Source: Demequina subtropica (lineage in GTDB: Bacteria; Actinomycetota; Actinomycetes; Actinomycetales; Demequinaceae). From it: a stretch of 64,000 nt of DNA. The translations under genes were made by a program, and so were the position numbers. Below are positions 118 to 12,372 of this stretch, one piece after another. Below the pieces are notes generated by a model. It ran no database searches. It was not told the origin of the DNA and saw only the letters and a program-made list of their open reading frames with translations. Location: contig NZ_BBMB01000013.1 of the NCBI RefSeq assembly GCF_000971235.1, positions 1-64,000 on the forward strand, given 5' to 3'. Each line of letters opens with the position of its first letter. The stretch's first letter is position 1.

Positions 118-1230
118 GTGGCGCCCCAACCGATTCGTATCCTCGACCTCTTCGCGGGCGCCGGCGGGCTCACTGCAGGATTGACGAAAGCGGACCCACG
201 TTTCGCGAGCGTCGCAGCCGTCGAGATGGACCCTTTCGCCGCGGCTAGCTACGCCCTGAATCACCCCGACGCCGAGGTCTTCGCACTGCCAATCGAGCAG
301 TGGCTCGAGGACCATGAGATTACCCGCGGGGTCGATGTGATCGTCGGCGGACCGCCGTGCCAAGGCTTCTCAACTCTCGGCAAACAGGACGAGCAAGACG
401 AGCGCAACCTCCTGTGGCGGCAGTATGCCGAGACAATCGTCCGTTACCGACCGAAGTACTTCGTGGTGGAGAACGTCGCCGCCTTCGCGAAGTCACCGCA
501 GTTCGAGCAGTTCCGCCGCGAGACGGAGCCTGGCGGCACACTCAGCGAATACAACTTCGAACACACCGTGTTGAATGCAGCCGATTTCGGTGCACCGCAA
601 GCACGCAGGCGCGCGGTCGTCATTGGCCATCTGCGGAACCTTCCCTTCCCTGGTTTCCCCACACCTACGCATGACGCGAAAGGATCCTTCGGACTCCGAC
701 CACACCGGACTGTTCGTGAGGCGTTGGCGACGGTGCCGGACCGCCCGGATCGAGACCATCTCTTGGACGAGCGTCGCACCGCAGTCGGGGGTCGACGGGC
801 TCCGGGCCCGTTCCTTCCTCGGGACATGCACTGGAGTCGCGACTACGCGGACATGTCGCTGCAGCGCTTCGCCGCTATCCCGCCGGGCGGAAACCGTTTC
901 GATCTGCCGGACGAGCTGCTCGCGCCCTGCTGGCGTAAGCACCAGTCAGGATCCGCCGACGTGATGGGCCGGATGCATTGGGACAAACCCTCTGTCACCG
1001 TCAGGACCGAGTTCTTCAAGCCCGAAAAGGGTCGCTACCTTCACCCTGAGGCGAACCGCGCCATCACGCACTTCGAAGCAGCGATCTTGCAGGGCTTCCC
1101 CGCAAACCACCAGTTCGTCGGATCACGCGTAGCAATTGCACGCCAAATCGGCAATGCGGTGCCCATTCCTCTTGGCGAGGCGATAGGCCGCATGATTGCC
1201 GCGCAGTTCCCCGTGATGGCGGACGCGTAA
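118..1230 (+). CDS. DNA (cytosine-5-)-methyltransferase
   Basis: This is a C5-cytosine DNA methyltransferase that uses SAM, about 370 residues, a normal size for a single-domain restriction or orphan enzyme. The motifs are in the classical order: DLFAGAGG (motif I, residues 10-17), GGPPCQGFS with catalytic Cys81 (IV), VVENV (VI, 116-120), QARRRAVVIG (VIII, 161-170) and IGNAVPIPLGEAIG near the C-terminus (X). The variable target-recognition region lies between VIII and X. The frame is open upstream to base 7, but GTG at 118 puts motif I about 10 residues in, as in the family, and a TAGCAT -10 box (104-109) lies 8 bases before it. The target site cannot be read from sequence. No endonuclease is visible downstream; a partner could lie left of the window. 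Confidence 0.93.
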   Translation: MAPQPIRILDLFAGAGGLTAGLTKADPRFASVAAVEMDPFAAASYALNHPDAEVFALPIEQWLEDHEITRGVDVIVGGPPCQGFSTLGKQDEQDERNLLWRQYAETIVRYRPKYFVVENVAAFAKSPQFEQFRRETEPGGTLSEYNFEHTVLNAADFGAPQARRRAVVIGHLRNLPFPGFPTPTHDAKGSFGLRPHRTVREALATVPDRPDRDHLLDERRTAVGGRRAPGPFLPRDMHWSRDYADMSLQRFAAIPPGGNRFDLPDELLAPCWRKHQSGSADVMGRMHWDKPSVTVRTEFFKPEKGRYLHPEANRAITHFEAAILQGFPANHQFVGSRVAIARQIGNAVPIPLGEAIGRMIAAQFPVMADA

Positions 1231-1431
1231 CACGGTCATCACATGCGAGCTGCCACCCTGTGGCGCACCGCTGTGGAGGGTCGTCGGGTCACTTGCACAG
1301 CACTGCGCCCCCAACCCTTTGCAAGGGTGGGAACGCCCCGACGTTGGATTACCCGCCTGTCTCAGATCGGCGTGCGTGGCCCAGTCGGGGCGGCTGCCGT
1401 CAAAGCGACGCCAGAGGCCCGGCGCCAGGCG

Positions 1432-2370
1432 TCAGCGCACTATGACGAGCACGTCGGGTCGCTTCACGAGCCAGTGCGCAAGCCCGTACATGTCCGGGTA
1501 CATCGCGGACGTGCGGATCCCGTAACGGCGCTCAAGCTGCTCACGGATCTCGGCCTTCGCGTCCAGCAGGATGCGGAACGTGAACACCGGCGCCCGATCA
1601 GCCGGAAGAACGCCGTCGCGAGCCCGCGTGAGTTCGAGAGGCATCGAGCTGTAGTCACGCATCTGGTCGATGCTCCATCGCGAGCGCTCGCCGGGTGCCA
1701 CTCGTCCGATGCCCGTGCGTGCGGCCTCGATCGCAACGCCATCGAGCAGGAATCCTGCGCTCTGAGCGGCGATGCGTGAGTGGTAGACCGGCGGACGCCA
1801 GTAGCGCCGAAGCGTGCCGGTGCCCCACCGCTTGTCTGCCCGATGCGCATCGTGCTTGAGGCTGTGCCAGAGCGGCTCGCGGGTGTGCCAGTTCTGATTG
1901 AGGGTGACGTCGCTCTTGTCGGGAGCCACGAAGGCGAAGATGCGACCGTCGGCCTCCTCCTCGGGCTCTGCAACCGAAGTCACAGGCCGCTCGGTCGCGA
2001 ACCAGAGCGCGAACATGGGATTCTCGGTGACGTCGAGCAGCCGTGTGGGTCCCCCGACGTGCTGCAGCTCGGCGAAGATCTCGAGCGCCGGCGTTCCATC
2101 GAAGCGCCAGTCTGTGCGCGCATGGTCGAGTATCCGCTTCTCGGCGTCGACCATCTCCTGTTCCGTCGGCGGTCTTCCGAGGACTCCGCGAAGCGTGCGG
2201 TAAAGGGAGCTCTCAACACCCCAGTTGGCGTTCCGCGCGCCTCGCCACAGCAGGCGTTGCGCAGGGTAGCTCCCGGTAAGTTCGTTCACCTGCGCCTGGA
2301 AGTCCGACCAGCTCGCGATGGGCTCGGACTCCCATTCGCGGAAGAAGTCTGCAGCAAGCATTCCGGCCAT
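1432..2370 (-). CDS. FRG-domain protein
   Basis: A 312-residue FRG-domain protein. The diagnostic parts are LWRGARN at residues 41-47 (the (F/W)RG motif) and QHVGGPTRLLDVTENPM (about 103-119), matching the family pattern QHxGxPTRLLDWTxxP. FRG proteins are soluble, of poorly known biochemistry, and frequent in accessory or defence-like regions. No signal peptide or membrane segment is visible. ATG 2370 is preceded by AGGGG at good spacing. The gene converges on the methyltransferase across about 200 bases and may belong to the same defence-type locus, although they are not in one operon. The domain call is firm; the function is unknown. Confidence 0.8.
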   Translation of the reverse strand: MAGMLAADFFREWESEPIASWSDFQAQVNELTGSYPAQRLLWRGARNANWGVESSLYRTLRGVLGRPPTEQEMVDAEKRILDHARTDWRFDGTPALEIFAELQHVGGPTRLLDVTENPMFALWFATERPVTSVAEPEEEADGRIFAFVAPDKSDVTLNQNWHTREPLWHSLKHDAHRADKRWGTGTLRRYWRPPVYHSRIAAQSAGFLLDGVAIEAARTGIGRVAPGERSRWSIDQMRDYSSMPLELTRARDGVLPADRAPVFTFRILLDAKAEIREQLERRYGIRTSAMYPDMYGLAHWLVKRPDVLVIVR

Positions 2371-2447
2371 CAGCGCCCCTCAGTCGTGTTGAACGGACAC
2401 TATCGAGGCGGGCGGGTCCATCCGGCCTGATCTCGCTCGTGTCGCGC

Positions 2448-3164
2448 TCAGGTCCACGCTTCCGCGCCGAGTGCGCGCACGATCGCGGGAGCAAGCCTCG
2501 CGCCCATCCCGCGGTAGGTCTCAAGCAGGTTGGTCGACCCGGCCGCAGTCCGCACGAACCCATACCTGTCGATCACCGCGACGGCCTCAAGGTCGCGCAT
2601 GAGCAGCCACGCATGGGTCACGGGGATCTCGTACAGCGCACCTTCATCGTCGGTCTCCTTCCACCCGCCCTTGAGCTCATCGAGCGACGCCCAACCCGCG
2701 GCCTCCCCCATCCACGACAAGTCCTGGAGCACATGCGGATCCCCGGCGCGCTCGCCCCGCAGCGTCCACGAGTATCGCGAGTTGACCATCGCGCCGAGGA
2801 TCCACGCGATGGCCCGGTAGCCGATGGTGATGCCGGTGGTCGCCGGGGTCTCGGCGGGCTTGCCCATCCCGTGCGCGTCTTCGATCTTGCGCAAGATCGC
2901 ATGGGGGTTGACCTGCTCGAGCAGCGCGAGCGGTGCGACGCCGAACTCGCGGTCCTTGATCGCGATGCCCGCAATGCGCGAGAACCCGACGCGCACGTGT
3001 CGGTCGTCAATGGTGCCGACCGCCTCTACGACCGTGCCGACTTCGTCGTACACCGACTCAATCAGTCCCAGACGTGGGTGGCGCCGGCACAGCTCCGACG
3101 CGACCCACCACAGCTGCGCGTCGACGAATCGGTCCGCCGCGCGGAACGCCTTGGCGTTGGTCAT
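2448..3164 (-). CDS. Putative TY-Chap-like (peptide-binding chaperone) protein
   Basis: A 238-residue soluble protein with no catalytic motif that I recognise. The N-terminus (residues 8-33, with QLWWVASELCRRHP) resembles the start of the actinobacterial TY-Chap proteins, a T3SS-chaperone/YbjN-like fold thought to bind peptides. This is a memory-based match, not a search result. The real start is the ATG at 3164, which shares one base with the stop of the ADP-ribosylglycohydrolase gene (TGATG), so the two are translationally coupled. The much longer open frame upstream is only antisense-like shadow of that gene. The context suggests a partner or client-handling factor for the ADP-ribosylation enzymes. 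Confidence 0.5.
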   Translation of the reverse strand: MTNAKAFRAADRFVDAQLWWVASELCRRHPRLGLIESVYDEVGTVVEAVGTIDDRHVRVGFSRIAGIAIKDREFGVAPLALLEQVNPHAILRKIEDAHGMGKPAETPATTGITIGYRAIAWILGAMVNSRYSWTLRGERAGDPHVLQDLSWMGEAAGWASLDELKGGWKETDDEGALYEIPVTHAWLLMRDLEAVAVIDRYGFVRTAAGSTNLLETYRGMGARLAPAIVRALGAEAWT

Positions 3165-4642
3165 CACTTCACCTCCGCGAGGTAGGCACGGAACGCTGCG
3201 TTCGGTGAGGCCGCCGGCAGCGCCGCCACGACGTCTGCGAACGCCTGCTCCGGCTCCACGCCGAGGTGTCGCGTCGCGTACAGCGCCGCGACCGTGGGCG
3301 TCCGCGACTGCGCCGCGACGCAGTGGAGGTAGACCCTCTTGCCCTCGGCCCGCAGTGCGGCCACCGCATCGGCCGCCTCCTCGAGCACGAAGGCGAGGTG
3401 CTCGTTCGCCTCCGGCGACGCATCGTCGATCAACCAGACCTCCGCAACGTCCGCCCGTCCGATACGCGTGGGCACCTCGCGCGCGCCGAGCTGGCACAGG
3501 GAAACGACCGCGTCGATCTCGGCGGGCAGGTCGGCGAGGTTGTCGACGCCGCCCATGAGGACGCCGGCGTCGTGCGGATGGACGGCGAGCGCGTCGCGTC
3601 CGGTCCACCGCGAGTAGTCGACCCTGTCCCCCGTGAGCCAACCGCGCGAGTCGGGCGTGCCGCCGCGGACCGCGAGCACGGCGAGCCGCGTCAGGTCCCG
3701 CGCACCGAGCCCCGGGTAGCCGTGGAGCAGCCGCTGCCAGCCGACAGGGATGGCCGAGGCGCCGACGAGGGCGCCCGCGAGCGCGCCGGCGATCGCGGCG
3801 ACGGTGTCGGTGTCGTTGTGGATCCGCACCGCCTGCTCCACCACCCGGCGGAACGCGGCGGGCGTGTGCGTCGAGGGGTCGTCGAGGACGATGCCGCCCG
3901 CGCGGATCGCGGCGTACGCGGCCTGGACGGCGTCGACCACCCAGCCGTTGTGCGGGAACAGGTCGGGGTCGGCGCCGTCGGCTGCGGCGAGCAGCGCTGC
4001 CCACCGCTCGCGGCGTGCCTCGGGGAGGGCGGCGAGCGCATCGTCCAGGCGCACTCGGCCGTCGCGCACGGCGAGGTGGATGAGCACGCTCCACAGGGCG
4101 GCGCCGTCGCGGGCGTCGTCCTCCCAATGCGTCAGTGCGGCGATTGCGTCGGCGGCCGCGGCGACGCGGGCGACGCTGTCCACCTCGCCCATGTACGCGA
4201 GCCCGACCGGTGCCGTCCGCATGACCGAGCCGTTGCCGCCACTGCGGCCGTTCGCCTCGTGCACCCGGCGCGCCGACGTGGACGCGGCCGCCGCATCGTC
4301 CCCCCGCATGCCCCGGAGGACCTGCGAGGTCTGGATGCCGATGTCCTTGGCGCCGCGCGACCAGACGGCCCAGTCCCGGACGATGCGGTCCTGCGCCTCA
4401 GTGCTCGCCAGGTCCAGCCCGTCGGCGACGGCACGGAGGATGGGGACCGCCATGGCAGTGTCGTCGGTCCATTCGCCGGGCGCCCAGGTGTGGTTGCCGG
4501 TCATGTCGGCGGCGGTGCCGGCGAGGGTGAGGTGCGGGCGGGCGGGGCCGAACTCGTACGGCGCGCCGATCGCGTCGCCGACGGCCGAGCCCAGGATGGC
4601 GCCGGCGGCGCGGTGGGCGGTGGAGTTGCTGGTCTTCGTCAT
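3164..4642 (-). CDS. ADP-ribosylglycohydrolase fused to a dual-specificity-type phosphatase
   Basis: A two-domain, 492-residue protein. Residues 10 to about 330 form an ADP-ribosylglycohydrolase (DraG/ARH fold): GSAVGDAIGAPYEF (18-31), the metal-binding WTDDT (58-62), NGSVMRTAP (137-145) and HNDTDT (275-280), so the dinuclear Mg site looks intact. Residues 340-492 form a cysteine phosphatase: HCVAAQSRT (440-448) gives the CX5R loop with nucleophile Cys441 and Arg447, and IDDASPE (405-411) could supply the general-acid Asp. The expected roles are removing ADP-ribose (or a derivative) and dephosphorylating an associated product; the substrate is inferred, not shown. ATG 4642 is preceded by GAGGGGGA. 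The gene is divergent from the NrtR-type regulator and coupled to the downstream gene. Confidence 0.88.
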   Translation of the reverse strand: MTKTSNSTAHRAAGAILGSAVGDAIGAPYEFGPARPHLTLAGTAADMTGNHTWAPGEWTDDTAMAVPILRAVADGLDLASTEAQDRIVRDWAVWSRGAKDIGIQTSQVLRGMRGDDAAAASTSARRVHEANGRSGGNGSVMRTAPVGLAYMGEVDSVARVAAAADAIAALTHWEDDARDGAALWSVLIHLAVRDGRVRLDDALAALPEARRERWAALLAAADGADPDLFPHNGWVVDAVQAAYAAIRAGGIVLDDPSTHTPAAFRRVVEQAVRIHNDTDTVAAIAGALAGALVGASAIPVGWQRLLHGYPGLGARDLTRLAVLAVRGGTPDSRGWLTGDRVDYSRWTGRDALAVHPHDAGVLMGGVDNLADLPAEIDAVVSLCQLGAREVPTRIGRADVAEVWLIDDASPEANEHLAFVLEEAADAVAALRAEGKRVYLHCVAAQSRTPTVAALYATRHLGVEPEQAFADVVAALPAASPNAAFRAYLAEVK

Positions 4643-4674
4643 GGCGGTCCCCCTCAGATGTCGTTGGCGCAATT

Positions 4675-4700
4675 TTGCGTCAATTGACAAGTTAACGCAA
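4675..4700. promoter_or_regulatory. Candidate NrtR operator (inverted repeat)
   Basis: The arms TTGCGTCAA (4675-4683) and TTAACGCAA (4692-4700) are 8/9 complementary, separated by 8 bases. A further CGCAA half-site lies at 4668-4672. The repeat lies in the 77-base space between the divergent ARH-phosphatase and NrtR-type genes and overlaps the -35 box of the latter. It is the most AT-rich stretch nearby. Binding by the adjacent regulator is inferred. Confidence 0.5.
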
Positions 4701-4712
4701 GGGTGCGACATT
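4684..4712 (+). promoter_or_regulatory. Promoter of the NrtR-type gene
   Basis: A perfect TTGACA -35 (4684-4689), a 17-base spacer and a weak GACATT -10 (4707-4712) precede GTG 4720. The -35 lies inside the inverted repeat, so a bound repressor would block it. Confidence 0.45.
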
Positions 4713-4719
4713 CGATGCC

Positions 4720-5364
4720 GTGAAGAACTTCCGCGACTCCTCCGGCAAGGCGCTGAGCGACTACCCGCGGCCCTCCGTGGCCGTCGACATCGCGGTGCTC
4801 ACCGTCGTCGGCGGCGCTCTGTCGGTACTACTCGTGGACGACCCCCGCGACGGATCACGCCGACTCCCGGGCACCTTTCTCCACGAGGGCGAGGTGCTGG
4901 CCGATGCGGTGCACCGTTCACTGGCCGACAAGGCCGGGGTGGCGGGACTCGAGCCTGTGCAGCTGCGGGTGTTCGACTCGCTCGACCGCGACTCGCGCGG
5001 ATGGGTGCTCTCGGTCGCGCACCTGGTGGCGGTGCCCGCTCCCCTGCTGGGCGGGGTGACTCTGGTGCCCGTCACCGAAGTCGGCCCGCTCGCATTCGAC
5101 CACGCCGCGATCCTCGAGCTCGCGGTCGCGCGGCTGCGGGCGGACTACGCGGAGCACCCCGATCCGTGGGGCCTGCTCGGGGATAGGCCGTTCACGCTGC
5201 TCGAGCTCGAGCGGCTTCATCGCGCGGTGGATCCCGAGCGCCCCGGTCGCAAGGACACGTTCCGCCGACTAATGGAGCCGCAACTGGTCGACACGGGCGA
5301 GCTTGAACAGGGAACCGTAGGCAAACCTGCCAGGCTGTTCATCAGATCTCGGGGGGACTCATGA
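4720..5364 (+). CDS. NrtR-type transcriptional regulator (degenerate Nudix plus winged helix)
   Basis: A 214-residue NrtR-family protein. Residues 15-140 are a Nudix-fold ligand domain (YPRPSVAVDIAVLTV; LPGTFLHEGE), and residues about 155-214 are the NrtR winged helix (FTLLELERLHRAV, GRKDTFRRLM, GKPARLFI). The Nudix box is broken: the REUXEEXGU segment reads RSLADKAGV (66-74), losing three glutamates, so hydrolysis is unlikely and an ADP-ribose sensing role fits. In the known family NrtR represses NAD-metabolism genes and is released by ADP-ribose. The GTG start at 4720 has no strong SD. The gene overlaps the next one by 4 bases (ATGA). Confidence 0.85.
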   Translation: MKNFRDSSGKALSDYPRPSVAVDIAVLTVVGGALSVLLVDDPRDGSRRLPGTFLHEGEVLADAVHRSLADKAGVAGLEPVQLRVFDSLDRDSRGWVLSVAHLVAVPAPLLGGVTLVPVTEVGPLAFDHAAILELAVARLRADYAEHPDPWGLLGDRPFTLLELERLHRAVDPERPGRKDTFRRLMEPQLVDTGELEQGTVGKPARLFIRSRGDS

Positions 5365-5732
5365 CGAACGCGACACCAGAGCCGATCACTCAGCTCGAAC
5401 TGATCGCACTGCAGCGGCTTTACCTCGATGCCCGGTACCGGGGCGCAGCGGAGGATGCCTCGACCATCAAGGCGCTCTTCGAGAGCCGCGCCAAGGAGTT
5501 CGCCGTCGGGCGCTCTCTCGCGGACATCATGGACGCGATCGATGAGGACGGCGAGAACTACTGCTTCTACCTGTCGTCGCTCGACGAACTGCCGCCTGCT
5601 CCGCCGAAGGAGTGTTTCGAGCCGCGGCTCAACCGTGAGGAGCGCGAGCGCTGGTTGCGCGCGTACCAACAGGACGGCGCCGACTGGACCGACACCGACA
5701 TCCTCATGGCCATGGGATCCGGGATGAACTGA
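5361..5732 (+). CDS. Uncharacterised 123-residue protein of the NrtR operon
   Basis: Not recognised. It is a small acidic soluble protein of 123 residues, mostly predicted helical. There are two obvious segments: an N-terminal helix rich in Leu/Ile (QLELIALQRLYLDARYRG, 11-28), and a C-terminal charged part ending in WTDTDILMAMGSGMN. It contains two cysteines but no CxxC or other catalytic signature. ATG 5361 overlaps the regulator stop (ATGA) and GGGGGA lies just before it, so it is translationally coupled. Its position between the regulator and a TY-Chap-like gene suggests a cassette component. Confidence 0.7.
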   Translation: MTNATPEPITQLELIALQRLYLDARYRGAAEDASTIKALFESRAKEFAVGRSLADIMDAIDEDGENYCFYLSSLDELPPAPPKECFEPRLNREERERWLRAYQQDGADWTDTDILMAMGSGMN

Positions 5733-5783
5733 CAGCGCCCGCGACCACCACACCACCCCACCACCCGCTGAGGAGCACCCACC

Positions 5784-6539
5784 ATGTCGAACTTCGGTCT
5801 GGAAGCGATGGGCGACGAACGCATCCGCATCGCCGCATCATGGGATATCGCCGCACGCGTGGTCGCGATCGACCCCGCGTCCCGCGTCTACGAGTACCAC
5901 CCGATGGGCGGCATGTACGACTGCCTGGCGATCGGCCGCCAGGGAATGCAGATCGACATCAACCGCAATGGATCGGTTCACGTCCGCGAGAGCGTTGGCG
6001 GCGAGGCGAACCCGCTTGTACCGCTGGAGCAGTGGCACGACATCGTGTCGTCGGCACCGGGGACCGCGGCAATCGTGGGCACCATCGCCGCGCACTGCCG
6101 CCTCGACGGAGCCAAGAAGCCGTCGCGCGCACCGTGGCCCTTGACCTACCAGGTCGTCGCACGCGTCCTCGCGAGCCGGATCTTCGACTCCGCCGTGTGG
6201 GACTGCCGCCTCCAGCTCGATGACTCCTCGGGCCACTACAGCGAGCCGCCGCTGCGCTTCGAATCGCCGTCGCCCGAGGCAAAGTCCATTCCTCCGACCG
6301 AGTTCTGGGCGATCATGCGCAACGACGAGCCCATCGCCTACCTGTGGAACGGCTGGGCCTGGAACGGCGTGGGCGAACGCATCAACCTCGCATCCCGGTT
6401 CGCGCGCGGCGACTCCATTGACGCGCTCGCTCGCGACCTCGTCACCAGGTCCGGAGTGAAGGCGTCGACCGAGCTACCCCCGGTGCGGGTCCAGGTCGAG
6501 CCGCAGGGCTTCGTCACACCGCCGATGTTTCATCACTGA
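5784..6539 (+). CDS. TY-Chap2-like putative peptide chaperone
   Basis: A 251-residue soluble protein. Its first half has YHPMGGMYDCLAI followed by IDINRNGSVHV, and its second half has PLTYQVVARVLASRIF and VWDCRLQLDDSSG. I associate this pattern with the actinobacterial TY-Chap2 family (T3SS-chaperone/YbjN-like fold, predicted peptide binding). That assignment rests on remembered family features. No catalytic motif is evident. ATG 5784 follows GAGGAGC at good spacing. It probably shares the NrtR promoter and is followed after 9 bases by an amidohydrolase-like gene. Confidence 0.6.
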   Translation: MSNFGLEAMGDERIRIAASWDIAARVVAIDPASRVYEYHPMGGMYDCLAIGRQGMQIDINRNGSVHVRESVGGEANPLVPLEQWHDIVSSAPGTAAIVGTIAAHCRLDGAKKPSRAPWPLTYQVVARVLASRIFDSAVWDCRLQLDDSSGHYSEPPLRFESPSPEAKSIPPTEFWAIMRNDEPIAYLWNGWAWNGVGERINLASRFARGDSIDALARDLVTRSGVKASTELPPVRVQVEPQGFVTPPMFHH

Positions 6540-6548
6540 GGCTGGCGC

Positions 6549-7307
6549 ATGACCTCGCCCGTGATCCTCCACGTTCCCCACGCTTCGCGCGGGATCCCGG
6601 CGGACGTGCGCAGAGGGATCCTCCTCGACGATGCCGCCCTCGAGCACGAGCTCGACATGATGACCGACTCCTTCACCGACGTCATCGCGGCGCGCGCGAC
6701 CGAAGCCGCGGGCATCGAGGCGCTGGTGATCACCGCCCCGGTCTCGCGCCTGGTGGTCGACGTCGAACGCTTCGTCGACGGGTCCGAGCCGATGGAGAAG
6801 GTCGGCATGGGCCCGATCTACACGCACACCCACGACCAGCGCACCCTTCGCGACACCGTTGATGCGGCGCTGCTCGATCGTTACTTCCACCCGCACACCC
6901 AGGCAGTCGAGGACGCCGTGACCGCGGCGCTCGAGGCCCACGGCCAAGTCGTCGTGATCGACTTGCACTCGTACCCGACGCATCGTCTCCCCTACGAGAT
7001 GGCGGAGCACGATGCGCCGCGTCCGCAGATCTGCCTGGGCACCGATGCGTTTCACACTCCGGCGTGGTTGCTCGACGCAGCACGCTCCGCCCTCGATGGC
7101 TTCGAGATCGGGCTCGACTCGCCGTTCGCCGGCACCTACGTGCCACTCCGGTTCTACGGGCACGATGCGCGGGTCGCCTCGATCATGGTCGAGATCCGGC
7201 GCGACCAGTACATGGACGAGTCCACCGTCCGCGCGCATGACGGGCTCGAGGCACTAGTTGGCGCGTTGGCCGACCTATGCGCGGGCGTCGACAGCGCGCA
7301 GCTCTGA
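6549..7307 (+). CDS. N-formylglutamate amidohydrolase-family protein
   Basis: A 252-residue member of the N-formylglutamate amidohydrolase (HutG-like) family. Visible signatures are ILHVPHASRGIP at residues 5-16, the acidic DDAALEHELDMMTDSF, ITAPVSRLVVDVERF, YFHPHTQAVEDAV and VVIDLHSYPTHRLPYE. The His and Asp/Glu residues are those expected to bind zinc. The classical reaction is N-formyl-L-glutamate to glutamate and formate in histidine breakdown, but no hut gene is nearby. Its place at the end of the NrtR operon suggests another acyl-amino substrate. The start has a GAGG motif close upstream. No terminator is obvious; about 270 bases separate it from the tRNA. Confidence 0.85.
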   Translation: MTSPVILHVPHASRGIPADVRRGILLDDAALEHELDMMTDSFTDVIAARATEAAGIEALVITAPVSRLVVDVERFVDGSEPMEKVGMGPIYTHTHDQRTLRDTVDAALLDRYFHPHTQAVEDAVTAALEAHGQVVVIDLHSYPTHRLPYEMAEHDAPRPQICLGTDAFHTPAWLLDAARSALDGFEIGLDSPFAGTYVPLRFYGHDARVASIMVEIRRDQYMDESTVRAHDGLEALVGALADLCAGVDSAQL

Positions 7308-7528
7308 TATACGGCCAGCTCGCTCACATCGAGCAGGGGCTCGAGGCCCCAGGAGTTTTCCACGGTGCGGTGTTCGGCGCTCATGCCGCATAGGTGCGGA
7401 GCGCGCACCCCAGGCGTCCGGGACCAACCGGCACCAACGCGGGCCTGCCGTGGCGCAGCGGGCCAGGGGCTCCTCAGCGAGCCCAAAGTGATGAGTAAAT
7501 GATGACCGGGTCATGTCACTCCATGCAA

Positions 7529-7562
7529 AAAGTCCTGGCAACCCGTGAGTTACCAGGACTTT
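7529..7562 (-). terminator. Intrinsic terminator downstream of tRNA-Pro
   Basis: The arms AAAGTCCTGG (7529-7538) and CCAGGACTTT (7553-7562) are perfectly complementary with a 14-base loop. On the minus strand the stem is followed by a T run, directly after the tRNA 3' end. Some bidirectional action on the amidohydrolase operon is possible. Confidence 0.75.
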
Positions 7563-7576
7563 CCGCTTGCTACACG

Positions 7577-7650
<74 letters not shown>

Positions 7651-7826
7651 TGACAGCCCGATAACTATATCGGAATCCGGAGGCCTCCAAGACCACTTTC
7701 GACGCCAAGTCGCAGAAGAAGGCGCATAACTTGGTCAGCCCCGCGTCAACCCAGAAGACCGAGCCGCTTCCGCATCGTCCCTCGTCTCCCCTAGTCTCGG
7801 AGCACTGCTCAACGACGAGGAGACAC

Positions 7827-9107
7827 GTGCTCGACACCGCCATCATCGGCGCGGGCCCCGCTGGCCTGGCCGCCGCGTACGCGCTCAAGCAGCGCGGCCT
7901 GCCGTATACCCACATCGAGCGCAATCAGGGCATCGGCGGGGTGTGGGACATCGACGCCCCGGGCAGCCCGATGTACGAGTCGGCCCACTTCATCTCCTCC
8001 AAGACCCTCTCGGGCTTCCCCAGCTTCCCCATGCCGGACGCCTACCCCGACTACCCGAACCACCGTCAGATCCTCGCGTACCTGCACGCGTTCGCGGCCA
8101 CGAACGGCCTGGCAGAGGCCATCGAGCTCGACACGGCGGCGGCGAAGGTCGAGCCCACCGGAGACACCTACCGGCTCACGAGGGAGAACGGCCTCACCAC
8201 CGAGCACGCCCAGGTGATCATCGCGTCCGGCGCCCAGTGGATCCCGAACATCCCCCCACTCCCCGGCACATACGAAGGCGAGATCCGCCACACCGTCACC
8301 TACCGCAGCGCCAAAGAACTCGAAGGCAGAAGCGTCCTGGTGGTCGGCGCTGGCAACTCCGGCGCGGACATCGCGTGCGACGCCGCGCGCGCAGCGGACC
8401 ACGCCGCCATCAGCCTCCGCCGCGGCTACCACTTCATCCCTAAGCACGTCTTCGGGATGCCGTCCGACGTCTTCGCGACGGGCGGCCCGACGCTCCCGAT
8501 GTGGCTCGAGCAGCGCGTCTTCGGCGCGATGCTGCGCGTCCTCAACGGAGACGTCACCCGCCTGGGACTGCCCAAGCCCGACCACAAGGTCTTCGAGACG
8601 CATCCGCTCATGAACACGCAGCTGCTTCACCACCTGGGGCACGGCGACATCACGGCCCGCCCGGCCATCAAAGACACCCACGGCACCACCGTGACCTTCA
8701 TGGACGGCTCCACGGAGGACGTCGACCTGATCCTGCTCGCCACCGGCTACCGCCACGAGGTGCCGTACGCGCAGGAACTCCTGGGCTACGACGCCCACCC
8801 CGATCTCTACCTCACCGCCTTCTCACGCCACGCGGGGCTGTACGGCCTCGGCTTCGTGGAGACCAACGGGGCCTCGTACGTCCTCATGGAGCAGCTCGCG
8901 ACGATGATCGCGCAGCACATCGAGGATCGCGAGCAACGCCCCGACCGGTGGATCGAGTTCGAGCGCGTCATCGCGACCGACACCCCCGACCTCACGCGCG
9001 GCGTCCGCTTCGTCGACTCGCCCCGGCACGTCGGCTACGTCGAGTCGACCGCGCTCACCCGCTACCTGCACCGCACCGCCAGGCGCATGGGCTGGAGCAT
9101 CCCGTGA
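7827..9107 (+). CDS. Flavin-containing (FMO/BVMO-like) monooxygenase
   Basis: A 426-residue class B flavoprotein. The FAD-binding GAGPAG lies at the N-terminus, the NADPH-binding GAGNSGAD about residue 170, and between them YEGEIRHTVTY, close to the FMO fingerprint FxGxxxHxxxY. It therefore probably inserts oxygen into a soft nucleophile or ketone; the substrate is unknown. The GTG at 7827 has an AGGAGA SD and places GxGxxG near the start. The open frame extends 96 bases upstream but lacks an SD there. A TAGTCT -10 lies at 7792-7797. The gene overlaps the downstream SDR gene (GTGA), implying a shared pathway. Confidence 0.85.
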   Translation: MLDTAIIGAGPAGLAAAYALKQRGLPYTHIERNQGIGGVWDIDAPGSPMYESAHFISSKTLSGFPSFPMPDAYPDYPNHRQILAYLHAFAATNGLAEAIELDTAAAKVEPTGDTYRLTRENGLTTEHAQVIIASGAQWIPNIPPLPGTYEGEIRHTVTYRSAKELEGRSVLVVGAGNSGADIACDAARAADHAAISLRRGYHFIPKHVFGMPSDVFATGGPTLPMWLEQRVFGAMLRVLNGDVTRLGLPKPDHKVFETHPLMNTQLLHHLGHGDITARPAIKDTHGTTVTFMDGSTEDVDLILLATGYRHEVPYAQELLGYDAHPDLYLTAFSRHAGLYGLGFVETNGASYVLMEQLATMIAQHIEDREQRPDRWIEFERVIATDTPDLTRGVRFVDSPRHVGYVESTALTRYLHRTARRMGWSIP

Positions 9108-9988
9108 GGCGGCCCTTCGACCTCACGGGCCGCATCGTGGTGGTGACCGGCGGCGCTGGCGGGATCGGGCGGGCCTTCAGCGCGGCAGCAGCAGCGCGCG
9201 GCGCACGCATCGTCGTGGTCGACATGAGGGACGATGCGGCACGCGCCGCCGTCGATGCCCTTCCGGGCGGCGCCTCGCGCCACAGCGCCGAGGGGGGCGA
9301 CCTCACCGACCGCGTGCAGGCGGAGGCGATCATCGGTCGCATCGCCGACCGCCATGGCCGCATCGACGTGCTGGTCAACAACGCCGGCATGACCAGCGCC
9401 GCCCGCTTCGACGAGCGCAGCGTCGAGAGCATCGAGCACGAGCTCGCCGTCAACCTCACCGCGCCTCTGGTGCTCACCAGGCTCGCGGTCCCGCTCCTGC
9501 GCGAGGCGCCCGACCCGCGCGTCATCACCACCGTCTCGCTGGGCGGCATCTTCCCGCTCGGCGAGACCCCGATCTACACAGCGAGCAAGTTCGGACTCCG
9601 CGGAGCGATGCTCTCGATCGCGCTCGACATGCGGCACAAGGGCATCACGATGAGCGCGGTGCTTCCCTCCGCGACCGACACGCGGATGCTCCGCCAGGAG
9701 GCGCTCGACGGCGGCAACTCGCTCCAGTTCCAGGACCCTCCGCAGACCCCCGAGCACGTCGCACGGACGATGATGGGCCTGCTCGACCGCCCACGCCTCG
9801 AGGCGTACCCGCGCCCGTCGGAGTCGTGGCTGGTCCGCGCCGCGATGCTGGCGCCCGGCGCTCTCCCCCGGCTCATGCCTCTGTTCCGGGGCCGTGGAGA
9901 GCGCGGACAGGCGCGCTACGTACGCGAGCTCCGTCAACGCGGGCTGGTGCGCACCGTGGACGGCGCGGAGGTCGCGGTCGAGGACTGA
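9104..9988 (+). CDS. Short-chain dehydrogenase/reductase (SDR)
   Basis: A 294-residue classical SDR. It has TGGAGGIG (cofactor glycine motif) near residue 15, NNAG about residue 90, a serine in VSLGG and the catalytic YTASK with Tyr and Lys. The basic stretch after the second strand is weak (VVDMRDD), so NAD(H) preference is plausible. A C-terminal extension of about 50 residues with a hydrophobic stretch (LVRAAMLAPGALPRLM) could allow membrane contact. GTG 9104 overlaps the stop of the monooxygenase gene (GTGA), so the two are coupled and may oxidise or reduce the same lipid-like or ketone substrate. It converges on a diguanylate cyclase gene. Confidence 0.88.
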   Translation: MRRPFDLTGRIVVVTGGAGGIGRAFSAAAAARGARIVVVDMRDDAARAAVDALPGGASRHSAEGGDLTDRVQAEAIIGRIADRHGRIDVLVNNAGMTSAARFDERSVESIEHELAVNLTAPLVLTRLAVPLLREAPDPRVITTVSLGGIFPLGETPIYTASKFGLRGAMLSIALDMRHKGITMSAVLPSATDTRMLRQEALDGGNSLQFQDPPQTPEHVARTMMGLLDRPRLEAYPRPSESWLVRAAMLAPGALPRLMPLFRGRGERGQARYVRELRQRGLVRTVDGAEVAVED

Positions 9989-10006
9989 GGCGGGAGCGGA
10001 AGCGCC

Positions 10007-11182
10007 TCAGACGCCGCGAGGCGCCTCGTCGGCGGCATGCTCCGGCGCGCGGTAGACGACCTCGGTGTTGCGTCCGGCGCGCTTGGCCTCGTAGAGGGCC
10101 TCGTCGGCCCGCGCCATGAGGATCGCGAGCCCGAGGCCGGGCTCCGCGGCGGCGAGCCCGTGGCTCGCGGTCGGCATCGCACCGCATTCGGCCCTGCAGT
10201 ACTCGCCGTACCGCAGCGTGACCTCGCGGGCGCGGGCCGCGGCTTCCTCGACGTCGATGTCCTGCAGGACGATGACGAACTCGTCGCCGCCCAGGCGTCC
10301 CAGGATGTCCTCGGGCCCGAGCGCCTCGCGCCACGCGCGTGCGAACGACACCAGGGCGCGGTCGCCTTCGGCGTGCCCGCGGGAGTCGTTCACGGACTTG
10401 AAGCGGTCGAGGTCCGCCATGACGAACACGAGCCGCCGCGAGGAGTCCCACGTCAGGACCGCCTGCTCCGCTCGCTGGTAGAGCTCTCCGCGGTTGAGCA
10501 CGCCGGTGAGATCGTCGGTGACGGCACGATGCTCGAGCTCGGCCCGCGAGTGCACGTGCGCGAGCTGGCTGACGGCCTGGGTCACCGTGGCGACCGACAC
10601 CATCTGGATCAGCGCGGTCACGCCGCTGCCCGCGATCGTGGCGAAGGCAGCGCTCTCGGGCCCTTGGAGGAAGAAGATGACCCAACGAACGGTGTAGAAG
10701 ACCGTGAGGAAGGACGCGACCGCTGCCATCAGCCTGACCTCGGTACGGCCGAGCCTCCCGTTGTGCCGCCACAGCTCGTATGCCGTCGATCCAGCGCAAC
10801 CGCCGAGTGCGATGAGCATGTACGCGCCGCCGGCCCAGGAGTTCTCCGCGGGGCCCTCGAGCAGCGTCGACACCCCGGCACCGACGACGACCGTCGAGAA
10901 GAGCCACCAGGGCAGCGACTCTCCGCGCACGCGTAGCGCGGTCGCGATCATCAGGCATCCGCCCGCCACCGCCGCCATGTTTGCGAGCGGAGACGTGTAC
11001 GCCTGGACCGGCGTGCCATCGCCGACATACAGGGCTGTCCCCAGCGTGAAGGCGACCAGCGACCCGAGCCACGTCGCCGCGACCGAGCCGCGACCGTCGC
11101 GCCGTGCCGCGATCCCGGTGTAGAGCATCGCCAGGAGGACCAGCAGCGCGAGCGCGATCCGCATGCTCAGCTCGTCGATCAC
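10007..11182 (-). CDS. Membrane diguanylate cyclase (GGDEF), copy 1
   Basis: A 391-residue protein with about seven hydrophobic segments in residues 1-200 and a cytoplasmic GGDEF domain after it. MADLDRFKSVNDSRGH and GRLGGDEFVIVL show an intact active site for making cyclic di-GMP from two GTP. The inhibitory I-site position five residues before the motif reads GPED, so the RxxD arginine is missing and product inhibition is probably weak. The GTG start at 11182 overlaps the upstream paralogue's stop (GTGA). The sensory input is unknown; the membrane part resembles integral 7-TM sensor modules. Confidence 0.88.
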   Translation of the reverse strand: MIDELSMRIALALLVLLAMLYTGIAARRDGRGSVAATWLGSLVAFTLGTALYVGDGTPVQAYTSPLANMAAVAGGCLMIATALRVRGESLPWWLFSTVVVGAGVSTLLEGPAENSWAGGAYMLIALGGCAGSTAYELWRHNGRLGRTEVRLMAAVASFLTVFYTVRWVIFFLQGPESAAFATIAGSGVTALIQMVSVATVTQAVSQLAHVHSRAELEHRAVTDDLTGVLNRGELYQRAEQAVLTWDSSRRLVFVMADLDRFKSVNDSRGHAEGDRALVSFARAWREALGPEDILGRLGGDEFVIVLQDIDVEEAAARAREVTLRYGEYCRAECGAMPTASHGLAAAEPGLGLAILMARADEALYEAKRAGRNTEVVYRAPEHAADEAPRGV

Positions 11183-12372
11183 GAGGTGGCCTCATGCGGC
11201 AGCGCGCCACGTCCGTGGGAGCGGACCGCGCCTCCCCGCGCGGCCTTCGCCTCGTACAGCGCCATGTCGGCACGCCCCACGAGCACCGTGACGCTCGTCT
11301 CGGGCTCGACCACAGCGATCCCGTAGCTCGCGGTCGGCACGAGCGTCACATGCTCGGCCGCCGCGTCCTCGAGGCGCGGCGCGAGCGATGCGATGCGAGC
11401 ACGCGCGCCCTCGACGTCCACGTTGCGCAGCAGCGCGAGGAACTCATCGCCGCCGAGCCGCCCGAACAGGTCGCCCGGCTCGAGAGCCGACCTCCAGGCG
11501 TCGGTGAAGGCGATGAGCGCGCGGTCGCCCGCGGCGTGCCCCCACCCGTCGTTGAGCTCCTTGAAATGATCGAGGTCGCAGGCCACGAGGACGCATGGCA
11601 CCGTGCGCGCATCGGCGACGCCGTCCTGGATCCGCTCCATGAGCGCGGTGCGCGACAGCACGCCCGTGAGGTCGTCGGTGGTGGCGCGCCTGACCAGGTC
11701 GACGCGGCGACGGTTCTCGCCGAGCGCCGCCATCGCGAAGGTCACCGTGGCGACCACGCCGATCTGCACGAGCGCCGTCGCGGCGACGCCGAACGAGGTG
11801 CCGAACGCCCCTTCCTCCGGACCTTCGATGGTCAGGTCGATCCAGCGCCCGACGTAGACGAGGGCCAGGACTACACCGGCCGCGAAGAAGGCCGTGTAGG
11901 CACGCCTCTCGACCAGCGCATCGGCCGCGTCGGCGACGTCCAGGCGCCCCCGCTCGATCCACATCTCGACCGCGACCGTGCCGTAGACCCCCGCGAGCAT
12001 CGTGTACATGAAGGCGGAGCCCGCCCACTCGTTCGCGCCCGGGCCGTCGACCGCGGCGGCGGCGATGGTGCCGGCGATCATGAAGGCCTCGGGGAACCAC
12101 GGCACCTTGAGGCCGCGGATGGCACGGGTCGCGTTGAAGACGGACAGGACGGCCGCCACCCCCACGGCATTGCCGAGCGGCACCAGCAGCCACTGCAGCG
12201 AGGTGCCGTTGCCCATGTCGAACAGCAGGCTCACGATGGTGAGGATCATGGTCGCGCCCCACCAGCGGGGCGCCGTGGAGGACCACGCACGTGCCACCGA
12301 GCCGAGCGTGTGGATGAGCGACAGCGCGACGACGACGCCGAGTGCCACTCGCACGCTCGTCGGGTCGATCAT
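11179..12372 (-). CDS. Membrane diguanylate cyclase (GGDEF), copy 2
   Basis: A 397-residue paralogue of the downstream gene with the same layout: about seven membrane helices and then a GGDEF domain (CDLDHFKELNDGWGH, GRLGGDEFLALL). The I-site reads EPGD, again lacking Arg. Start ATG 12372 (MIDPTSVRV) was chosen because the same MID... start occurs in copy 1 and a GGTGAG stretch precedes it; the open frame runs about 66 bases further upstream. The two genes form a tandem duplication with coupled translation. Their matching membrane halves suggest related but separately tuned signals. Confidence 0.88.
   Translation of the reverse strand: MIDPTSVRVALGVVVALSLIHTLGSVARAWSSTAPRWWGATMILTIVSLLFDMGNGTSLQWLLVPLGNAVGVAAVLSVFNATRAIRGLKVPWFPEAFMIAGTIAAAAVDGPGANEWAGSAFMYTMLAGVYGTVAVEMWIERGRLDVADAADALVERRAYTAFFAAGVVLALVYVGRWIDLTIEGPEEGAFGTSFGVAATALVQIGVVATVTFAMAALGENRRRVDLVRRATTDDLTGVLSRTALMERIQDGVADARTVPCVLVACDLDHFKELNDGWGHAAGDRALIAFTDAWRSALEPGDLFGRLGGDEFLALLRNVDVEGARARIASLAPRLEDAAAEHVTLVPTASYGIAVVEPETSVTVLVGRADMALYEAKAARGGAVRSHGRGALPHEATS

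Follow-up and report, generated by a model that had tools for sequence, protein, structure and literature searches.

Counter-ADP-ribosylation systems were predicted in 2022, in a study by Iyer, Burroughs, Anantharaman and Aravind. They combine an ADP-ribosylglycohydrolase (ARG) and phosphatase, a Nudix/NrtR-type repressor, TY-Chap2 proteins and variable modules (PMC9503650, section 3.8). According to that proposal the systems are off by default and are induced by ADP-ribose or a nucleoside; ARG and phosphatase then strip adducts, chaperones bind the modified proteins and effectors act as a second line, the purpose being the reversal of viral ADP-ribosylation. A phosphatase, fused or adjacent, was reported in “a little over 55%” of cases, a Nudix or WYL one-component repressor in “over 42%” and a chaperone “often”, and it was a criterion of the search that no ADP-ribosyltransferase (ART) be genomically coupled (PMC9503650). 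Here we examine a related locus of Demequina subtropica, located in a 64,000-nt stretch of DNA (the window) whose first base is also that of contig C11; the genome (G000) measures 3.08 Mb. We lean toward reading this locus as an inducible, mobile anti-phage ADP-ribose eraser cassette of the ARG-centric kind, with an FRG-domain protein as its linked effector.

A preliminary description recognized six genes in order around one divergent promoter, and all six open reading frames are indeed present (Table 1). The tight coupling that it reported is also seen: the ARH stop codon overlaps the start of the left-arm TY-Chap2 gene, the NrtR-type and 123-aa genes share 4 nt (5361-5364), and gaps of 51 and 9 nt precede the right-arm TY-Chap2 gene and the N-formylglutamate-amidohydrolase-like (FGase-like) gene, respectively. 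The left edge had been set at 2448, which is too narrow. Beyond it, after a gap of 77 nt, lies an FRG gene that had been overlooked and that matters for the mechanism; it is in line with the left arm and on sequence grounds belongs to the unit. Across 19 gene pairs (seven genes, chosen relatives), the ratio of nonsynonymous to synonymous substitution rates (dN/dS) was 0.10-0.27 with no internal stop; by this range and by a gene order that recurs in other Demequina, the cassette genes appear clearly to be more than chance reading frames. Profile searches identified a C5 cytosine methylase beside the FRG gene, at the contig edge.

Table 1. Features of the cassette and its integration site in the window.
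Feature	Coordinates	Strand	Evidence and remarks
FRG-domain protein, 312 aa	1432..2370	-	PF08867; PADLOC PDC-S15; predicted ADP-ribosyltransferase-superfamily fold; proposed effector/writer or NADase
TY-Chap2 protein, left arm, coupled to ARH	2448..3164	-	PF22553, 105.9 bits
ADP-ribosylglycohydrolase + DSP-like (HCX5R) phosphatase fusion, 492 aa	3164..4642	-	PF03747, PF00782
Palindrome 1, left-arm side	4664..4683		pattern search and promoter alignment
Palindrome 2, right-arm side, shortly after a TTGACA hexamer	4692..4711		pattern search and promoter alignment
NrtR-type regulator, degenerate Nudix box and winged helix	4720..5364	+	PDB 3gz5 match; PF21906 just under cut-off
123-aa orphan protein	5361..5732	+	familyless; genus conservation; dN/dS; all-helical low-confidence model
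Second TY-Chap2 protein, right arm	5784..6539	+	PF22553, 80.9 bits
N-formylglutamate-amidohydrolase-like hydrolase (FGase-like)	6549..7307	+	PF05013; below HutG equivalog model
tRNA-Pro(GGG), integration site; cassette on its 3' side	7576..7650	-	tRNA search

Comparison across the genus, whose name is absent from the literature matches listed, gives the cassette its outline. Full-length ARH-phosphatase fusions occur in 6 of the 37 Demequina genomes searched for ARH (G000, G008, G016, G019, G021 and G022; seven more of our 44 genomes stand outside that count). The whole seven-gene set, in the order of the window, is found in D. pelophila (G021, locus L019). Elsewhere the right arm differs: D. 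soli (L020) has the 123-aa gene followed by an Mrr nuclease, D. gelatinilytica (L021) has the 123-aa gene and a diverged TY-Chap2 (28% to protein P0005), in D. rhizosphaerae (L022) an NT5C-type HAD nucleotidase is joined by an FGase, and G008 (L055) has FRG with no such right arm. Thus, by gene content, right-arm modules that PMC9503650 names (restriction endonuclease, HAD nucleotidase) appear to exchange beside one promoter within one genus; another of them, ARPP, is found at the same divergent core in L056 (G041). In G033 (L110:9870-12088) there is no ARH match; tblastn recovers FRG residues 245-262 and 280-308, then NrtR residues 159-201, after which the 123-aa, TY-Chap2 and FGase genes follow with open frames kept and no regulator. 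We interpret this arrangement as a deletion scar that preserves the gene order of the window. A second D. pelophila cassette (L023) consists of a regulator and a 331-aa ARH without phosphatase. The stretch L023:6671-10844 also holds proteins of 199 and 531 aa with no Pfam family at E 0.1.

The catalytic core is well conserved. The ARH domain of the fusion scores 170.9 bits against PF03747 in a Pfam search, its PDB relatives include ARH3 and the dinitrogen-reductase glycohydrolases, and the phosphatase part matches a DSP chain in PDB (E 9.3e-6). The ARH motifs WTDDT and DTDT and the HCX5R signature of the phosphatase are present, and residues D60, D61, D277, D279, H440, C441 and R447 are invariant in 13/13 aligned fusions (chosen from 35 full-length fusions found), in agreement with the earlier claim of intact motifs. 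The regulator aligns over both of its domains (residues 20-208) with PDB 3gz5, entitled “MutT/nudix family protein” (E 1.6e-12), which we take to be the NrtR of Shewanella; against NF050029 it scores 56.9, where the cut-off is 400. Its RExxEE box is degenerate, the first E being replaced by S and the last by K in all 11 aligned regulators, in line with the dead Nudix box noted earlier.

The regulator is accompanied by a local pair of operator-like sites. A single NrtR-type inverted repeat had been placed at 4668-4700; an operator-like repeat does lie there, in the form of two palindromes whose starts are 28 nt apart (Table 1). Genome-wide, the palindrome pattern has its sole match without mismatches at the first site and its sole match with 1 mismatch at the second; all other matches have 2, and the totals of 8 forward and 7 reverse (15) are below those of a control pattern read backward (24 and 22, 46 in all). 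Because sites with 0-1 mismatches occur nowhere else in the genome and the totals stay below the control, the regulator seems dedicated to this promoter. In an alignment of seven divergent promoters from six Demequina genomes, the second palindrome (TTAACGCAAGGGTGCGACAT in the window) is retained in all seven with small changes; the first (TTGGCGCAATTTTGCGTCAA in the window) is close in L020-L022, has diverged in both L019 and L023, and gives way in G008 to a different palindrome with spacing 7 nt longer. A TTGACA hexamer stands ahead of the second palindrome in six of the seven promoters, G008 being the exception. In our reading, the second palindrome would lie between this -35 element and a weak -10 that closely precedes the GTG start, and the regulator message may be leaderless. 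The concept of one divergent ADP-ribose-processing unit with an NrtR-type regulator is supported, the unit having its own operator pair.

In both the window and L019 the cassette is found at one tRNA-Pro, on its 3' side, and L019 has genes in common with the window beyond that tRNA; the L055 cassette is on another contig than its tRNA-Pro. Copies of the tRNA-Pro 3' end, 34-47 nt long, occur in at least 11 of the 44 genomes (G001, G004, G006, G015, G017, G022, G024, G026, G036, G442 and G445); they share contig and strand with the full gene and lie 2-34 kb from it, toward its 3' side. Other tRNA fragments, among the matches listed, are on other contigs or distant, and G017 and G026 have one further copy each, hundreds of kb off, that of G017 on the other strand. 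From this pattern, tRNA-Pro(GGG) appears to be an integration hot spot in Demequina, its copies marking repeated integration. In G000 the copy measures 35 nt (34/35) and is located at C12:202381-202415, 13.7 kb from the contig end. This end stretch has a G+C content of 63.5%, vs. 70.2% before it, and encodes (L250:6597-19654) a HATPase/Ymh protein, DrmB (1.6e-66), DrmA (1.4e-195), as well as NERD and TmtA/sacsin-type helicases. If the end of C12 abuts the start of the window, a join for which the tRNA copy and the strand are the sole grounds, there is perhaps a ~21-kb island that carries a DISARM-like system and the cassette. The G033 relic sits among type I restriction-modification genes, PDC-S06 and GmrSD, and L023 lies beside DrmD-like and UvrD-like genes.

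The patchy distribution, the defence neighbors and the integration site favor conflict or defence over housekeeping, as the preliminary description had supposed. Judging by the titles of two works that PMC9503650 cites (its references 163 and 164), NrtR regulators elsewhere among bacteria control NAD metabolism, and a housekeeping unit for NAD repair or salvage would be in line with this. We rejected it as highly improbable, given the sporadic spread (6/37 Demequina), the absence of any NAD-synthesis gene from the unit, the lack of any further operator elsewhere in the genome with 0-1 mismatches, and the defence-island setting.

A stretch of the window (7827-12372) that separates the tRNA-Pro from the genes in common with D. 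pelophila has no match to L019 genes. By eye, it includes an oxygenase-like and SDR-like (short-chain dehydrogenase/reductase) pair (7827-9988). Next to this pair are two adjacent related genes (10007-12372), the first of which shows GGDEF-like sequence by eye.

The FRG protein scores 61.2 bits against PF08867 (cut-off 25). It is also recognized by PADLOC as PDC-S15, the S class of which is presumably that of single-gene candidates. Residues R43, G44, R58, F124 and Q203 are invariant in 24 aligned sequences. The block QHxGxPTRxLD is invariant in the same 24, but this is circular since 22 of them were chosen by a DNA pattern for that very block. Frg has been placed in the ART superfamily and suggested to be a possible NADase in PMC9503650. 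An AlphaFold model (24 sequences, pLDDT 71, pTM 0.74) was compared by VIA-align with 212 preselected chains, of which 22 reached Z 2 or more. All 17 entries shown are ART-type by name, at Z 2.9-4.9, within the range (Z <8) that the tool flags as possibly of little meaning. The best row has Z 4.9, a root-mean-square deviation of 3.7 and 104 aligned residues. We take these 17 entries to be ADP-ribosyltransferase toxins, enzymes or complexes with one. Two titles are explicit (Pierisin-1 and rifampin ADP-ribosyl transferase), and for entries 8s2m, 8s2n and 9r35 the table is silent on which complex partner the chain is. The one-sidedness of these model-based rows suggests a weak but independent agreement with the published placement. 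A search of PDB sequences with the FRG profile gave three rows (best E 0.54), none named ART, and no pairing of “FRG domain” with DISARM or NADase is found among the literature matches listed.

Within Demequina, FRG is always found at the cassette: 4 of the 44 genomes have it, three with an intact gene directly after the left-arm TY-Chap2 gene and one, G033, as the relic. In the order, 13/396 genomes carry an FRG of this sort (E<=1e-10). ARH is close by in four of them, the three Demequina and G354; in G354 the FRG and ARH genes are convergent and 2.5 kb apart. In the class there are 17 copies in 16/394 genomes, those of G000 and G354 linked to ARH, and FRG and ARH are co-present in 6 genomes (table 6/60/10/318, Fisher p 0.035). 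Under uniform placement, linkage in 4/13 has a chance of 3e-8 and, with Demequina counted once (2/11), of 3e-4; the true odds are milder than these figures because defence genes cluster. G354 (L089:7050-12163) also has, next to its ARH-phosphatase gene, another gene that partially resembles ARH (221 aa, PF03747 37.7 bits); adjoining the two are genes for an Mrr-type nuclease and for a 318-aa protein that belongs to no Pfam family.

FRG could be merely a neighboring island gene, with the published eraser system alone as the functional unit. It may have its own promoter, since the last stretch of the 77-nt gap is alike by eye in the window and L019, and FRG proteins are themselves a PADLOC defence candidate. 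On the other hand, neither the position nor the orientation of FRG changes among the three Demequina, which represent no fewer than two sites; the relic agrees with this, and the 2/11 linkage speaks against coincidence, although uniform placement ignores the clustering of defence genes. We consider such a bystander role rather improbable. A little less improbable, but still unlikely, is a writer-eraser pair in which FRG is a toxin that ADP-ribosylates a target or depletes NAD+, the ARH-phosphatase with TY-Chap2 is the antitoxin, and NrtR tunes the eraser to the ADP-ribose level. This would fit the location of FRG after the eraser operon in all three Demequina with intact FRG, the G033 locus that lacks ARH and keeps only C-terminal scraps of FRG and NrtR, the ART-type rows, and the proximity in G354 outside the genus. 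Among 78 genomes (77 with an ARH match), however, just 8 have FRG, within 5 kb of ARH in only 4, half of the Demequina fusion cassettes (3/6) do without it, and FRG occurs without ARH in 93/93 other loci, in the stretches examined, and in 8/8 more. FRG in general therefore does not need this eraser.

Several results weigh against an anti-phage eraser cassette with FRG as linked effector, the interpretation that we prefer. Three family scores fall just under their cut-offs, namely PF00782 (DSPc) for the phosphatase part (32.7 bits vs. 33.5) and PF21906 (25.7 vs. 27) and PF00293 (19.2 vs. 21.1) for the regulator, and a strict sigma-70 scan of 1200-7700 found no promoter. Foldseek comparison of the FRG model with PDB and viral models gave no match at E <0.001, the top PDB rows being mostly non-ART, and 190 of the 212 VIA-align chains were below Z 2. 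FRG linkage is strong only within Demequina, which contributes three of the four linked intact cases. Its absence from the L020-L022 cassettes implies that FRG is not essential. There is no ARH nearby in the nine other order genomes with FRG (G182 and 8 more), and ARH is present at 0/15 of the other class FRG loci in the stretches examined and in 0/78 viral FRG stretches of 1.3-15 kb. The viral set was obtained with a motif pattern; a protein search of viral contigs had confirmed no FRG relative. Four plasmid neighborhoods (ARH, FRG) likewise contain no annotated FRG-ARH pair. One of the four, from Pimelobacter, has a DUF6569 gene near ARH, and we assume that DUF6569 corresponds to ARPP.

The remaining proteins include two chaperone-like and two less familiar members. 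Both TY-Chap2 proteins are above the PF22553 cut-off of 27, and barely resemble each other (best BLASTP segment 22.5%, E 0.01). The right-arm protein had been called TY-Chap2-like, correctly, and the left one TY-Chap-like; since both are Pfam TY-Chap2, we discarded the view that each arm has a chaperone from a family of its own. All 11 TY-Chap2 copies in 78 searched genomes (the 77 with an ARH match, plus G033) sit in cassettes or in the G033 relic. The FGase-like protein scores 160 bits against PF05013, and only one PDB entry matches it (E 2.3e-10), an N-formylglutamate amidohydrolase. A role in HutG histidine catabolism was rejected on the score of 38.2 against the HutG equivalog TIGR02017 (cut-off 278.75). 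The gene is found in 4/44 Demequina, each time in a cassette or relic, and, as far as its sequence indicates, is a further cassette-bound accessory encoding a predicted amidohydrolase; we would guess that it trims an amide- or ester-linked remnant. No link of FGase to defence, an operon or phage is found among the literature matches listed, where the lone mention of FGase is in a paper on a Pseudomonas reductase.

At E<=1, the 123-aa protein matches none of the families of Pfam, NCBIfam or PADLOC. Its gene is found in 5/44 Demequina, each in a cassette or relic, with dN/dS of 0.17-0.27, and the dN/dS range over the 19 gene pairs, free of internal stops, makes it very likely a real protein. Its co-occurrence with ARH across Actinobacteria, as had been envisaged, was not found: matches occurred in 3/394 class genomes, namely this genome and two with weak partial matches (E ~1e-4) that were rejected as relatives. 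A viral candidate, L137 (phmmer E 4.4e-6), was judged a chance match at a family-profile E of 0.0013 and 16 bits. We regard the protein as a conserved and, by the searches so far, genus-limited orphan. Its model (four sequences, mean pLDDT 60) is all helical and of low confidence, and its 21 VIA-align rows are mixed; they offer a loose contrast to the FRG rows and, the fold class being different, fall short of a proper control.

For the preferred eraser cassette, the following sequence of events can be proposed. At rest, the NrtR-type repressor would occupy both palindromes and silence both arms. The trigger may be ADP-ribosylation or NAD+ breakdown caused by a phage ADP-ribosyltransferase, by other defence enzymes or by the cassette's own FRG. 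Free ADP-ribose or a derivative would then bind the degenerate Nudix domain, by analogy with NrtR, and release the repressor. Judging from their families, the ARH domain would strip ADP-ribose from targets and the fused phosphatase would take phosphate off the released or phosphorylated product, while the TY-Chap2 proteins, following the published prediction, would hold the modified proteins; the earlier proposal of chaperones that present peptide substrates is similar to this prediction. If erasing fails, FRG, probably of ART fold and placed last in the left arm, may spend NAD+ or modify a target, and its product could feed the same sensor. The right arm (123-aa, TY-Chap2 and FGase-like genes) would act as an exchangeable module.

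A bolder version, which we regard as doubtful, is a self-contained circuit in which FRG writes or makes ADP-ribose, the dead-Nudix repressor reads it and the ARH-phosphatase erases it, with the FGase-like and 123-aa proteins forming an unrecognised processing module. If this were true, a single small molecule would trigger the antidote to the weapon as well as further expression. The locus is compact and comes, inside a single genus, in natural versions that have or lack FRG and carry right arms of several kinds. This makes it directly testable what the inducer is, whether the phosphatase serves ADP-ribose phosphates and whether FRG is a writer. Among the open-licence literature matches listed, as seen from titles and the starts of abstracts, none announces a test of the systems predicted in 2022.

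The regulator resembles the NrtR regulators of NAD metabolism in its degenerate Nudix domain and winged helix, and differs from them in its local operator pair, with no further sites at 0-1 mismatches, and in a cassette without NAD genes. Another system to be compared is DarTG, whose DarG is a macrodomain protein. Like DarTG, an ART toxin with an antitoxin that removes ADP-ribose, the locus possibly combines writer and eraser in a defence setting (PMC12255303). Unlike DarTG, it would use FRG as the writer family and ARH as the eraser family, plus a sensor, a phosphatase and chaperone-like proteins. With the systems of PMC9503650 it shares ARG and a fused phosphatase, a Nudix-helix-turn-helix repressor, TY-Chap2 and variable modules, and the restriction endonuclease, HAD nucleotidase and ARPP named there are all seen in the related loci studied here. 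It differs in having a coupled FRG (a predicted ART), two TY-Chap2 proteins, a hydrolase of the FGase-like type and the 123-aa orphan. The main text of PMC9503650 contains neither “amidohydrolase” nor “formylglutamate”, and “Frg” appears three times, never in section 3.8. Should FRG turn out to be an ART coupled to ARH, the published premise of no coupled writer would need revision. The cassette is mostly of the published, predicted kind, which the preliminary description had not recognized, and the FRG gene and the FGase-like and 123-aa module are new. Beyond PMC9503650, our analysis adds the operator pair, residence in an island, exchange of the right arm within a genus, and FRG.

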